Assembly: GCA_030038175.1 (NCBI GenBank)
Contig: JASHPN010000289.1
Location: 1 to 35,297 of the forward strand
Reading direction: 5' to 3'
Source: Verrucomicrobiia bacterium
GTDB taxonomy: Bacteria > Verrucomicrobiota > Verrucomicrobiia > Limisphaerales > UBA11358
DNA: 35,297 nucleotides
Shown: positions 1,161 through 29,130 of the stretch, piece after piece
How the letters are laid out: every line of letters starts with the position of its first letter
How positions within the stretch are numbered: position 1 is the stretch's first letter
Translations under genes and position numbers: made by a program
Notes under the pieces: model-generated
Database searches by the model: none
Seen by the model: the letters and a program-made list of their open reading frames with translations, nothing else
Told to the model about the DNA's origin: nothing

Positions 1161-4100
1161 ATGAAAGCCGCGCTCGAAACACAGGCCCATGCTTCCAGCC
1201 CCCGGAAATCGGCCTGGAAAACATTAGACGGTTGTGAAGCCGCCGCGTATGTCGCCTATCGCCTGAATGAAACCATGGCGATTTACCCCATAACTCCTTC
1301 ATCTCCCATCGCCGAGTGGTGCGACCAATGGGCCGCCGAAGGGAAAAAAAATCTTTGGGGCACCACGCCGGGCATCATAGAAATGCAAAGCGAAGGCGGT
1401 GCGGTGGGTGCGGTCCATGGAATGTTGCAAACCGGCTCCCTGAGTACCACGTTCACAGCGTCCCAAGGGTTGTTATTGATGATTCCCAACATGTTCAAAA
1501 TCGCCGGCGAATTGCTGCCGACGGTTTTTCACGTGACGGCGCGCACGGTCGCCACGCACGCGCTTTCCATCTTTGGAGATCACAGTGACATTATGGCCTG
1601 CCGCTCGACCGGTTGGGGAATGCTCGGGGCAGCGTCGGTGCAGGAAACCATGGATTTCGCGCTGATTTCCCAAGCGGCTTCGTTGCGGGCGCGGCTGCCG
1701 TTCATCCACTTCTTTGACGGCTTTCGCACGTCCCACGAGGTTTCAAAAATTGAAATGCTTGATGAACAGGTGATGCGAGCATTGATTGATGACAAATTGA
1801 TTGCGGCGCATCGCGATCGGGCAATGACACCGGACCGGCCGGTATTGCGCGGCACGGCCCAAAATCCCGACGCCTTTTTCCAGGGACGTGAAGCGGCCAA
1901 TCCCTTTTACGCGGCCTGCCCGAACATCGTGCAGCAGATAATGGATGAATTTTATAAGCTCACCGGGCGGCAGTACCGTCTGTTTGGCTACGTTGGCGCG
2001 CCGGACGCCGAGCGCGTCATTGTCCTGATGGGTTCAGGATGTGAAACTGTTCACGAAACGGTCGAGCACCTGGTTGCGCGCGGCGAAAAAGTGGGCGTGA
2101 TCAAAGTGCGATTATATCGTCCATTCGATGGCCGACGTTTTTTGGAGGCGTTGCCGAAAACTATCCGGAAAATTGCCGTGCTTGACCGCACGAAGGAACC
2201 GGGCGCGATGGGCGAACCGCTTTACCAGGATTGCCTGACGGCCCTGCTTGAAGGGATTTCCAACGGTCACAAGCATCTTGAACACCTCAAAGTGCTGCCG
2301 CACGTCATCGCGGGGCGTTACGGTTTGTCCTCCAAGGAATTTACTCCGGCCATGGTCAAGGCGATTTATGACAGCATGCTGGACAAGGCTGCGGCGGACC
2401 TGCCCAAAAAACATTTCACCATCGGCATCAACGACGACGTTTCGCACACGAGTTTGCCGTTCGACGCGAAATTTTCAACGGAACCGGACAATGTTGTGCG
2501 CGCGCTGTTTTACGGGCTTGGCTCGGACGGCACGGTGGGCGCGAACAAAAATTCCATAAAAATCATAGGCGAGGAGACGAAAAATTTTGCCCAAGGTTAC
2601 TTTGTGTACGACTCCAAAAAATCCGGCAGCATGACGGTCTCGCACTTGCGATTCGGGCCGCAGCCGATTCGTTCGAGTTATTTGATATCGAGCGCGAATT
2701 TTGTCGCGTGCCATCAGCCGGTTTTCCTGGAGCGTTATGACATGCTTCGCAGCCTGGTGCCGGGCGGGATTTTTTTGCTGAATACGCCATTTTCGGCCAA
2801 GGAAATCTGGCCGAAACTGCCGACACCAGTGCAGGAAGGTTTGTTCGCAAAGAAAGCTAAATTTTATGTGATTGACGCCACGAGCGTCGCGCGGGCGAGC
2901 GGGATGGGTGGGCGCATCAATACGATCATGCAGGTGTGTTTCTTCGCGTTGTCGGGCGTGCTGCCCAAGGAGGAGGCGATTGCGGCGACCAAAAATTCCA
3001 TCAAAAAAACCTACGGCAAAAAAGGCGAAGAGATCGTACAGATGAATTTGAAGGCGGTGGACAATACGCTCGAACATTTGCATGAAGTGGCACTGGCCGA
3101 TTGCCGGTTCAATGGAACGGGCGGATTGTTGCCGCCCATTTCCGCCGACGCGCCGAAATTTGTCCGGGAAGTTCTCGGCAAACTGGCCGCAGGCGAAGGC
3201 GATGACCTGCCGGTGAGCGCTTTTCCGAATGATGGGACATTTCCCATGGCCACGGCACAATTTGAAAAGAGGAATCTCGCGCTGGACATTCCGGTTTGGG
3301 ACGAGAAGACGTGCATCCAATGTTTGAAGTGCGTGGCGATTTGCCCCCATGCCACGATTCGCGCGAAGGTTTACGAGCCGGAAAAATTGAAAGGCGCGCC
3401 GGGGACGTTTAAGTCCACTAATTCGCGCAGCCCGGAATTCAAGGGCATGTCCTTTACGCTGCAAGTAGCGGCGGAGGACTGCACGGGTTGCGGCATTTGC
3501 GTGGATGTATGCCCGGCGAAAAACAAAACGGAAACCAAGCTCAAGGCGATCAATATGCGCCCGCAGGCGCCGTTGCGCGGGGCGGAGCATGAGAACTGGA
3601 ATTATTTTCTGGGCCTGCCGGAAATGGACCGACGTAAAATCAAAACCACGCAGTTGCGGCAGCAGCAGATTTTGCAGCCGCTATTTGAATTCAGCGGCGC
3701 GTGCGCCGGTTGCGGCGAGACGCCTTACATCAAAATGCTCACGCAATTGTTCGGTGACCGCGCCATCATCGCCAACGCCACGGGGTGTTCCTCGATATAC
3801 GGCGGCAATTTGCCGACGACGCCCTATGCTACGAACCAGTGCGGACGCGGCCCCACGTGGTGCAATTCGCTTTTTGAGGACAACGCGGAATTCGGCCTGG
3901 GGTTTCGTGTTTCCATTGATAAACAAAAGGAATTTGCGGAAGAGCTGCTCAAAAAACTTTCACCTAAACTTGGGGATGAGTTTGTCGTCCGAATCCTTCT
4001 GGCGGACCAATCCGATGAAGCCGGGATTTACGAACAGCGTGAATGCGTCGCGGCCTTAAAAGAAAAATTGCAAAAAATGGATTTGCCCGAAGCGAAATTG

Positions 4101-25671: not shown

Positions 25672-26682
25672 ATGCCCAAATGCCCTATCATTATTGCCAC
25701 GCGTGGCAGTGCCCTTGCATTGGCACAGGCTAACTTCATTGCCGACCAGTGTCGTGAATTTTTTCCTCAATTGCATTTCGAATTGAGAATTATTAAGACC
25801 ACCGGTGATAAACTTAAAAAATCATCGCTCGCCAAAGGCGGTTTGCCCAAGGGCCTTTTCACGAAGGAACTCGAAGTCGCGCTCGTCAAAGGCAAGGCAC
25901 ACATGGCTGTCCACAGCCTAAAAGATTTACCCACTGATCTGCCGAGTGGATTGACACTCATCGCCACGCCCGAACGTGCCGATGTCCGTGACGTTTTAGT
26001 TTATCGCTCCGCTGAAGATTTGGAGCGACATGCCAGGAAAAACAGTCTGGATTGTTCTTCTGGCCAAAGCGAGCTTCGTGGTTTCAAACCAGGCATGGCC
26101 CTGAAGGACTTTCCTAATTCTGCAACCATCGCCACTAGCAGCGAACGGCGCAAACTGCAATTGCTCGCCTCCCGGCATGATTTTAAAATCATTGAGATTC
26201 GCGGCAATATTTCGACCCGCCTGCAAAAGGTCGCCAAAGGCGCCGAGTTGGACGGAACCATTCTCGCCCTCGCTGGTTTGACACGGCTTAATTTTAAAAT
26301 TCGACCGAACGGAACATTGACTGGTGATACAGTGCCGGATGGTTTGCTGGCAACGGTTCTGGATTTGGATACGATGTTGCCGTGTGTTGGACAGGCGGCC
26401 ATTGGCATTGAAATTCGCGCAGATGACGAGCGTGTTTCAAAAATATGTGAACGTTTGAACCACTTTAACACGTTCCAATGCATAACCGCCGAACGCGCCT
26501 TTTTACGCGCAATGGGCGGCGGCTGCCAAAGTCCTGTGGCCGCTTATGCGAAAATCGCGGGTAATAAACTTTTTATGCGCGCCGTATCATTCTACAATGA
26601 AACGGGCCGGTGCTTTGAAATGAAACAGCCAATTGCGGAAGCAATTCAGTTAGGCGAAGAGATTGCGGCGAAGCTAAAATAA
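25672..26682 (+). CDS. hemC: Hydroxymethylbilane synthase (porphobilinogen deaminase)
   Basis: 336-aa enzyme that joins four porphobilinogen molecules to hydroxymethylbilane in tetrapyrrole synthesis. Visible: IIATRGSALALAQ at the N terminus, KGLFTKELEVALVKG and AVHSLKDLPTDLP with the active-site Lys/Asp region, ATSSERRKLQLLA, and the cofactor-binding Cys at 285 in MGGGCQSPVAAYA. A stretch of about 20 residues (about 120-140) between DVLVYRS and LKDFPNSATIATS is longer than in common HemC. No other haem gene is adjacent, so it appears isolated within an accessory patch. Confidence 0.95.
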   Translation: MPKCPIIIATRGSALALAQANFIADQCREFFPQLHFELRIIKTTGDKLKKSSLAKGGLPKGLFTKELEVALVKGKAHMAVHSLKDLPTDLPSGLTLIATPERADVRDVLVYRSAEDLERHARKNSLDCSSGQSELRGFKPGMALKDFPNSATIATSSERRKLQLLASRHDFKIIEIRGNISTRLQKVAKGAELDGTILALAGLTRLNFKIRPNGTLTGDTVPDGLLATVLDLDTMLPCVGQAAIGIEIRADDERVSKICERLNHFNTFQCITAERAFLRAMGGGCQSPVAAYAKIAGNKLFMRAVSFYNETGRCFEMKQPIAEAIQLGEEIAAKLK

Positions 26683-26896: not shown

Positions 26897-26905
26897 GTTC
26901 TACAG
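26897..26905 (+). repeat. Target-site duplication, left copy
   Basis: GTTCTACAG directly abutting the left inverted repeat; identical to 27275-27283. Confidence 0.8.
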
Positions 26906-26921
26906 CATGCTTATCCGGTTG
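26906..26921 (+). repeat. Left terminal inverted repeat
   Basis: CATGCTTATCCGGTTG; perfect inverted match to 27259-27274. Confidence 0.85.
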
Positions 26922-26963
26922 AATGACAAATGAAAAAAACACCACAACCTATAGTTTTCCACT

Positions 26964-27239
26964 TCAAAGACCTTTCCGCTTCTTATGCTGCTTGGCGAAA
27001 TCAAGTGCGAGTGCCTCCAAAGCTGAATGTTCGCCGTCACAAAGGGGGCCAAGCTCTTGCAGTATCGCTTCAAGTTGCAAAAGTCGTGCCTGCCCAAGCT
27101 CCGTTAAATGGGTGTCGAACGATTCTCCGGATACGAGGCTTCGGTCGACCCAGCCAGCTTCTACAAAAAGTCGAGAAATTGTGGCGTAATCCTCTGGGGT
27201 CGCTTCAATCATATAAGAAAGGCCACAAGGTATAGGCAT
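26964..27239 (-). CDS. Passenger ORF inside the inverted-repeat element, hypothetical
   Basis: 91-aa ORF from the ATG at 27239; a TTG at 27257, just inside the right inverted repeat, would add six residues. The protein begins MPIPCGLSYMIEATPEDY and ends in a basic tail (KQHKKRKGL). The middle, around THLTELGQARLLQLEAILQ, has the look of a winged-helix or MarR-like recognition segment, but I cannot assign a family. It is too short for a transposase. A + strand frame over the same DNA is also open (26930-27235) but reads less like protein. Since the ORF spans three quarters of the element, it may travel with it as cargo. Confidence 0.45.
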   Translation of the reverse strand: MPIPCGLSYMIEATPEDYATISRLFVEAGWVDRSLVSGESFDTHLTELGQARLLQLEAILQELGPLCDGEHSALEALALDFAKQHKKRKGL

Positions 27240-27258
27240 GAATCGAGTTTCTGTCAAC

Positions 27259-27274
27259 CAACCGGATAAGCATG
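27259..27274 (-). repeat. Right terminal inverted repeat
   Basis: CAACCGGATAAGCATG on the + strand; exact reverse complement of 26906-26921. Confidence 0.85.
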
Positions 27275-27283
27275 GTTCTACAG
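27275..27283 (+). repeat. Target-site duplication, right copy
   Basis: GTTCTACAG directly after the right inverted repeat; identical to 26897-26905. Confidence 0.8.
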
Positions 27284-27510: not shown

Positions 27511-29130
27511 TTAATATTGCACTTTGGGTCCGGCTTTTTTGATGTCTATAGGGGCATCACCGGCATTTTCCACGAAATTCTTTTCGAACATGCCAGCCAA
27601 TTCCTGTGCTTTGCGGTCGTAAGCGGCCTTGTCCTTCCAGGTATTGCGCGGATTCAAAATTTCACCTGGCACCCCAGGGCATGATTGTGGCACAGCTATG
27701 CCAAAAATGGGATTAGGGGTAGTTGTCACGTTTTTAAGCGAACCGGAAAGAACGACTTTGACCATCGCCCGCGTGAATCCAAGTTTGATGCGTTGGCCCT
27801 GGCCATAGCCGCCGCCACTCCAGCCGGTGTTCACGAGCCAAACATCCACCTCATGCTTCGCAATTTTTTCGCCAAGTAATTTTGCATAAACCGTTGGCGG
27901 TAAAGCCATGAACGGCGCGCCGAAACAGGGGCTGAAGGTGGCCTGCGGTTCTTTAATTCCAGCTTCGGTGCCCGCGACTTTAGCGGTGTAGCCGGCGAGG
28001 AAATGATACATCGCTTGTTCGGGTGTTAAGCGTGCAACGGGCGGGAGCACTCCAAAAGCATCGCACGTCAACATGATAATGTGTCTGGGATGACCGGCCT
28101 TACCGGCGCGTGTCATGTTGGGGATGTGCGTGATGGGGTAAGCCGCGCGCGTATTTTCGGTGAGAGATGCGTCATCGAGATTGATATGGCGTGTGCCCAT
28201 ATCCATAGTAACGTTTTCCAGAATTGTGCCGAAGCGGCGTGTGGTTTCGTAAATCTCAGGTTCGCTTTCGTGAGAAAGCTTGATCACTTTGGCGTAGCAG
28301 CCGCCTTCAAAATTGAAAACGCCGTCGTCACTCCATCCATGTTCATCATCACCGATCAGCGTCCGTTCAGGGTCAGCGGAGAGAGTTGTCTTTCCGGTGC
28401 CAGACAGACCGAAGAAAATGGCCACGTCGTTTTCGTCTTTACCATAATTGGCAGAGCAGTGCATGGCCATCACGTTTCGCTGAGGCAGCAAATAATTCAT
28501 CACGGTGAAAATGGACTTTTTGATTTCACCGGCGTAGCCGGTGCCTCCGATGAGGATGAGTTTCTTTCCGAAGTGCAGCAGCACGAAGGCTTCCGAATGG
28601 GTTCCGTCAATTTCCGGGTCCGCGTGGAAACCAGGCGCGTGCAACACCGTATATTCCGGGACGTGTTTCGCCAGCTTTTCCGGGTTTAGTTCGCGGATGA
28701 ACATGGTTCGCGCAAACAGGGCGGCGCTGGCGCGCTCGCTAATTACGCGAATGGGGACGCGATATTTTTCATCAGCACCCGCGTAGCAATTTTCAACAAA
28801 AATATCTTTGCCCTGAAGATAGGCACACAGGCGATATTTGAGCGCATCAAATTTTTCCGCGGGCAATGGCCGGTTGATCTTGCCCCACCAAATTTTATTC
28901 TCGCTCGACGGTTCGCGGACGAGGAATTTGTCCTTCGGAAGGCGGCCGGTGTATTGGCCGGTGCGAATCACAATCGGTCCAAGATGGCTTAACGAACCTT
29001 CGTAACGGCGAATGGATTCCTCATAAAGCGCCGGCGTTGACAGGTTCCAATAGACATGGCCGAGGTTATCGAGTCCTAAATGTTTTAGATCGTCCTCGTT
29101 GACGGTGGTTTCAGATGCAATTTCTTTCAT
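27511..29130 (-). CDS. pckA: Phosphoenolpyruvate carboxykinase (ATP)
   Basis: 539-aa enzyme interconverting oxaloacetate + ATP with PEP + CO2 + ADP. The nucleotide-binding kinase-1a motif GLSGTGKTTL is at residues 241-250, and kinase-2 follows at LIGDDEHGWSDDG. The PEPCK-specific stretch AGEIKKSIF (200-208) and substrate Arg in RTGQYTGRLPKDKF (near 56-69) are present. Length and motifs match the ATP-type, not the GTP-type. It lies on the - strand, opposite to most of the window. Directly upstream of it (29131-29470) is a decayed phosphofructokinase gene on the same strand. With ppdK in the window the cell has two routes around PEP. Confidence 0.97.
   Translation of the reverse strand: MKEIASETTVNEDDLKHLGLDNLGHVYWNLSTPALYEESIRRYEGSLSHLGPIVIRTGQYTGRLPKDKFLVREPSSENKIWWGKINRPLPAEKFDALKYRLCAYLQGKDIFVENCYAGADEKYRVPIRVISERASAALFARTMFIRELNPEKLAKHVPEYTVLHAPGFHADPEIDGTHSEAFVLLHFGKKLILIGGTGYAGEIKKSIFTVMNYLLPQRNVMAMHCSANYGKDENDVAIFFGLSGTGKTTLSADPERTLIGDDEHGWSDDGVFNFEGGCYAKVIKLSHESEPEIYETTRRFGTILENVTMDMGTRHINLDDASLTENTRAAYPITHIPNMTRAGKAGHPRHIIMLTCDAFGVLPPVARLTPEQAMYHFLAGYTAKVAGTEAGIKEPQATFSPCFGAPFMALPPTVYAKLLGEKIAKHEVDVWLVNTGWSGGGYGQGQRIKLGFTRAMVKVVLSGSLKNVTTTPNPIFGIAVPQSCPGVPGEILNPRNTWKDKAAYDRKAQELAGMFEKNFVENAGDAPIDIKKAGPKVQY

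Follow-up and report, generated by a model that had tools for sequence, protein, structure and literature searches.

A 369-bp insert between hemC and pckA of a Verrucomicrobiia bacterium, very probably a transposase-less cassette of the IS1595 family with a single passenger gene

We analyzed a stretch of 35,297 nucleotides from a Verrucomicrobiia bacterium of the order Limisphaerales (here called the window). Between hemC, which encodes porphobilinogen deaminase and ends at position 26682, and pckA, located at 27511 to 29130 on the minus strand (both names were read from the translations), the window contains a 369-bp insert at 26906 to 27274. The insert is bounded by CATGCTTATCCGGTTG at 26906 to 26921 and by its exact reverse complement at 27259 to 27274, and the 9-mer GTTCTACAG abuts both ends, at 26897 to 26905 and 27275 to 27283, as a perfect 9-bp duplication. 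The terminal inverted repeat reaches 23 nt at 91% complementarity, with the left and right ends agreeing at 21 of 23 positions. The features of the locus are as follows (TSD, target site duplication).

26897 to 26905, no strand: left TSD copy GTTCTACAG, 9 bp
26906 to 26928, plus strand: left terminal inverted repeat CATGCTTATCCGGTTGAATGACA, 21/23 match to the right end
26906 to 27274, no strand: whole non-autonomous element with ISAcr1-like IS1595 ends, 369 bp
26964 to 27212, minus strand: passenger gene, 82 amino acids, no transposase; start codon ATG at 27212, picked by the homologues
27229 to 27257, minus strand: putative promoter-like pair for the passenger gene
27252 to 27274, minus strand: right terminal inverted repeat CATGCTTATCCGGTTGGTTGACA, 23 nt
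27275 to 27283, no strand: right TSD copy GTTCTACAG, 9 bp

With up to three mismatches allowed, CATGCTTATCCGGTTG was found in the window at the two insert ends and had no further match (0.32 expected in shuffled sequences). Besides, the window has one perfect 16-bp inverted repeat with arms within 4 kb, and it is accompanied by an abutting 8- to 9-bp direct repeat; 60 simulated Markov windows of similar dinucleotide make-up contained a mean of 0.07 such inverted repeats and none with a duplication. The initial annotation had described a 369-bp element with exact 16-bp inverted ends and gapless 9-mer flanks, which proved correct to the base, and its judgment that ends and duplication would hardly arise together by chance agrees with the simulation, in which 0 of 60 windows gave both. 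Its statement that the insert has no transposase also held: the insert contains a single 82-amino-acid passenger open reading frame (ORF) without a transposase match. This ORF, which occupies most of the insert on the minus strand, had been absent from that annotation.

The ends had been expected to recur in the host genome and in relatives, and they did so in the relatives, around other inserts, whereas the host yielded no second copy. Among 39 relatives, the sole similarity to the insert was its last 23 bases, present exactly in two genomes of the same genus (G024 and G010). In G024, two facing ends, perfect over 25 nt, surround a 589-bp element with a different interior and the TSD CGAATATT on both sides, and in G010 the exact 23-nt end occurs singly. 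This unpaired end (L036:1116-1138, on contig G010:C448) has an oxidoreductase-like gene on one side and a long, repetitive ORF of surface type on the other; it is either a remnant or belongs, as one of two ends, to a longer element. Ends with up to three mismatches were detected in 11 of the 49 genomes of the genus, host included, and ends with up to one mismatch in 10 of the 320 genomes of the order; many end pairs in these relatives are about 130 to 280 bp apart and have 8- to 9-bp duplications, the related elements so delimited in genus and order measuring 132 to 276 bp. Three elements of 223 to 225 bp in G017, 82 to 94% identical, occupy three sites with three different duplications, a distribution indicating that transposase-less elements of this kind multiply. 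Within the loci collected, no empty sites for these other elements were found.

At least five contigs of a JACPZS metagenome-assembled genome (MAG), G117, carry near-identical copies of a 141-bp element with these ends (L054:1062-1202, L062:6107-6247, L063:1482-1622, L056:4250-4390, and L060:5177). None of the four complete copies has a target duplication, which may reflect assembly chimeras formed at repeats or recombination among the copies.

Neither a second copy of the insert nor a cognate transposase was found in the host genome, which counts against the explanation that we prefer below, although the assembly is a draft (5.39 Mb, 431 contigs, 92% complete). Sites with up to three mismatches to the end numbered 39, against 36 for a reversed control, and none was paired; they are thus at chance level and were rejected as further copies. 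The sole IS1595-type transposase of the host (L185:27-983, on G000:C227) stands at the start of a short contig and belongs to another branch, and no window-type ends were found near it on that contig. When the hemC-pckA gap was compared with 49 genomes of the genus, the 3' end of hemC alone aligned; the intergenic flanks were not conserved, and no empty site was seen. A stretch of another host contig (G000:C240:2283-2464) matches the 3' end of the window hemC at 72% identity and represents either a paralogue or a contaminating contig. At present the window element could be inactive, a stranded remnant.

A complete insertion sequence (IS) with matching ends, the search for which had been proposed along with the element, does exist. 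A Verrucomicrobia MAG of the same order (locus L059) contains an 1,826-bp element whose left end is identical, at 23 of 23 nt, to the right end of the window element and to both ends in G024. It is flanked by the 9-bp duplication ATATAATAT; including the outermost base of each end lengthens this repeat to 11 bp. Its 331-amino-acid transposase matched PF12762 (IS1595 DDE domain) at 3.4e-26, the zinc ribbon PF12760, and the NCBIfam IS1595 model at 1.7e-50, above the cut-off. Behind the transposase, two small ORFs on the opposite strand read inward from the right end, and one of them, the passenger ORF at 3477 to 3722 (minus strand, 81 amino acids), is homologous to the 82-amino-acid ORF of the window. 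This homologue was found blind, by a two-sequence profile run over 320 genomes (E = 6e-6 for the L059 genome); the pairwise comparison of the two passengers gave 37% over 51 amino acids (E = 6e-9), and both have equal orientation relative to the shared end. The window element resembles the L059 arrangement minus the transposase, and the passenger homology in L059 is the strongest single result of this analysis.

In the complete elements examined, the transposases that accompany such ends are of the IS1595 type. A DDE_Tnp_IS1595 transposase with an N-terminal zinc ribbon lies between the same ends in L059 and in elements of viral contigs and is absent from the window element. In a transposase tree, L059, 18 viral-contig elements with these ends, ISAcr1, and two sphingomonad elements formed one clade (100/99), outside which fell the only IS1595 transposase of the host and those of the other genus members examined; the program cautioned that long branches join at a deeper split. 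ISAcr1 of Acidiphilium cryptum, an IS1595-family element, has the end CTTGCCTATCCGGTTG, which agrees with the window end at 14 of 16 positions, and the transposases of ISAcr1 and L059 are 58% identical. The window/L059 type has its end and transposase clade in common with ISAcr1. The latter, however, is autonomous, with a length of about 1.1 kb, and the window element has a passenger gene instead of a transposase. The third catalytic residue of ISApl4, a member of the IS1016 subgroup, is E (PMC12561309); at this position, matched by eye to the published motif, about 95% of the rows of the ISAcr1/L059 clade have N. Target duplications of the IS1595 family are usually 8 bp (PMC8101967). The 9 bp duplicated at the window element and at L059 depart from this length, which counts against the assignment to the family. 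Among the matches listed, at least 78 of at least 84 elements have 8-bp and at least six have 9-bp duplications, but five of the six 9-bp cases listed are from Limisphaerales (the window, L043, L044, L050, and L059).

The passenger gene is one of a small family that is patchily distributed in Limisphaerales and has a motif around GWV..S.VT and T..G..R; homologues of about equal length occur in G010, G156, G052, G179, and other Limisphaerales, in addition to L059. The 82-amino-acid protein matched no Pfam, PHROG, or NCBIfam family, and a comparison with phage records, plasmids, and viral contigs gave no match. A cytochrome profile match was dismissed, as no matched stretch passes alone. Its predicted fold, computed from seven sequences, consists of three helices (pLDDT 83). 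Searched against the PDB, this model retrieved mostly MarR regulators on top, none of them significant (best E, 0.31), and it retrieved nothing from a viral structure library; the passenger is perhaps, by this subthreshold likeness of a model, a relative of part of a MarR winged helix, and we name no function for it. The right end of the element holds TTGACA (27257 to 27252) facing the passenger gene, followed by a 17-nt spacer and TATACC (27234 to 27229). A consensus promoter scan, which requires a final T, did not call this pair, and its role as a promoter from which the passenger might be expressed is suggestive only.

The initial annotation had offered two forms, a MITE or a mobile insertion cassette. 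A plain MITE would consist of these ends around noncoding DNA, the 82-amino-acid ORF being a chance reading frame. The insert is short, its ORF matched no family and is overlapped by similarly long ORFs on the opposite strand, and relatives have true MITEs with the same ends (141, 149, and 223 bp), all of which points in this direction, but the ORF has homologues of about equal length in other Limisphaerales, one of them within L059. We consider a plain MITE improbable. Since the homologue inside L059 reads inward from the same end, the mobile insertion cassette, with a gene inside that has homologues, is the form that stands.

We conclude that the insert is very probably a mobile insertion cassette, assigned to the ISAcr1-like branch of the IS1595 family, whose one passenger gene reads inward from the right end. 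It would have entered the hemC-pckA gap by transposition in trans with a 9-bp duplication and have derived from an element with transposase plus passenger. The transposase would have been supplied by an element such as the 1,826-bp one of L059, and the transposition into the gap would have duplicated the 9 bp. The cassette would have originated, most simply, when an element with transposase and passenger lost its transposase part, the direction of this change being our reading of the comparison. As a mobile cassette it is small and ordinary, and gene calling would overlook it.

Cassettes of this kind, which are transposase-less units with IS ends, a duplication, and a passenger gene (MIC231 and others; the term is used as in PMC3129680), were defined on IS231, to judge from the references given in PMC3129680 and PMC2266710. 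The window element likewise combines inverted ends of a known IS type with a passenger unrelated to transposition, and it encodes no transposase. Whereas MIC231 has the ends of IS231, of the IS4 family, the window element has IS1595 ends. Mobilization in trans has been demonstrated for MIC231. Furthermore, the IS1595 family includes transporter ISs with passenger genes, an arrangement credited to Siguier et al. 2009 in a citation within PMC3129680. Transposase and passenger stand together in L059 and in the phage elements L081, L127, and L141, and the window element is the transposase-less form.

The window element also resembles integron gene cassettes in that each mobile unit holds one small gene, often of unknown function; integron cassettes, however, have attC, which is absent from the window element; the latter is bounded by a pair of inverted IS ends with a target duplication. 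The passenger might once have been an integron gene cassette and the insert might have been placed by integron-type recombination, a proposal to which contig C470 of G010 lends some color: repeated GCCTAAC/GTTAGGC boxes surround small ORFs there (L218:1320-1868), apparently a chromosomal integron cassette array by its sequence, and one of these cassettes encodes a homologue of the passenger. This homologue is only 28% identical to the window protein and is a different gene, and no attC-like boxes border the window insert, so that the insertion step is largely refuted by the IS ends and the 9-bp duplication and the proposal as a whole is very unlikely; an integron source for the distant origin of the passenger gene is possible. 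The least probable reading, a cassette of the IS4/IS231 family, can practically be discarded on transposase type: IS231 ends likewise begin with CATGC, and the cassettes of IS231 are the type case, but the complete elements with these ends that we examined carry IS1595 transposases, and none had an IS4-type transposase.

The window element has many counterparts in viral contigs. A scan of IMG/VR for the exact 16-mer end gave at least 120 stretches, and at least 84 different elements among all loci collected combine the two ends with an exact duplication of 8 or 9 bp; these counts describe a sample selected by its ends, IMG/VR included, rather than a census. Among the matches listed, at least 19 of these elements have a transposase (1,567 to 2,636 bp) and at least 65 do not (223 to 1,516 bp), and the latter mostly contain one ORF that fills the element. 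In 48 of the 51 single-ORF cassettes of viral contigs among the matches listed, the ORF starts within 63 bp of one end, and in 39 of the 51 it stops within 45 bp of the other; ORF and strand were picked by length, and this placement follows partly from the ORF filling the element. A frequent subtype has a leader ...CACACACAAACGCTGAGACCTACTAGATGTTG and a tail ...GGGCTGTGTGTCTAAACCGG that recur around genes unrelated to one another, and the stop codon can be the TAA of the tail. One 365-bp cassette was found at two sites (L068 and L104), where its copies are 98% identical and have different duplications.

The cargo includes DNA methyltransferases, PAPS-reductase-like proteins, NADAR, and TnpB, and the rest mostly lacks a Pfam family. 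Some kinds of cargo occur both with and without a transposase, namely Dcm-like genes (L081 versus, by sequence, L119 and L111) and a PHROG 12600 protein (L127 and, by similarity, L171). Several cassettes have genes for terminase, DNA polymerase, primase, and tail fibers next to them; therefore, at least those contigs are phage.

We tentatively raise the possibility, in which our confidence is clearly limited, that these elements form a general mobile gene-cassette system, with single small genes held between IS1595-type ends whose inner parts give start-proximal and stop signals, residing mainly in environmental phages and mobilized by transposase-bearing relatives of the same pool, the window element being a chromosomal outpost. 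Such a system would act like integron cassettes, but via transposition. The phage cassettes may form one coherent system, or they may have arisen through many separate losses of the transposase. If the family is as broad as the IMG/VR sample suggests, it would give a cheap handle on mobile accessory genes of phages and a testable route for genes of unknown function between phages and bacteria; this population is of more interest than the window element, which is itself of a known kind. A literature search, falling short of most subscription journals, found no account of these phage cassettes.

Two further observations concern individual viral contigs. In L096 (1253 to 2408), a TnpB-like gene (OrfB_IS605, Cas12f1-like) is the sole cargo between IS1595-type ends. 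Two or three elements share one viral contig in L134, L154, L171, L182, L145, and L131, and L131 and L145 each contain one element with and one without a transposase.
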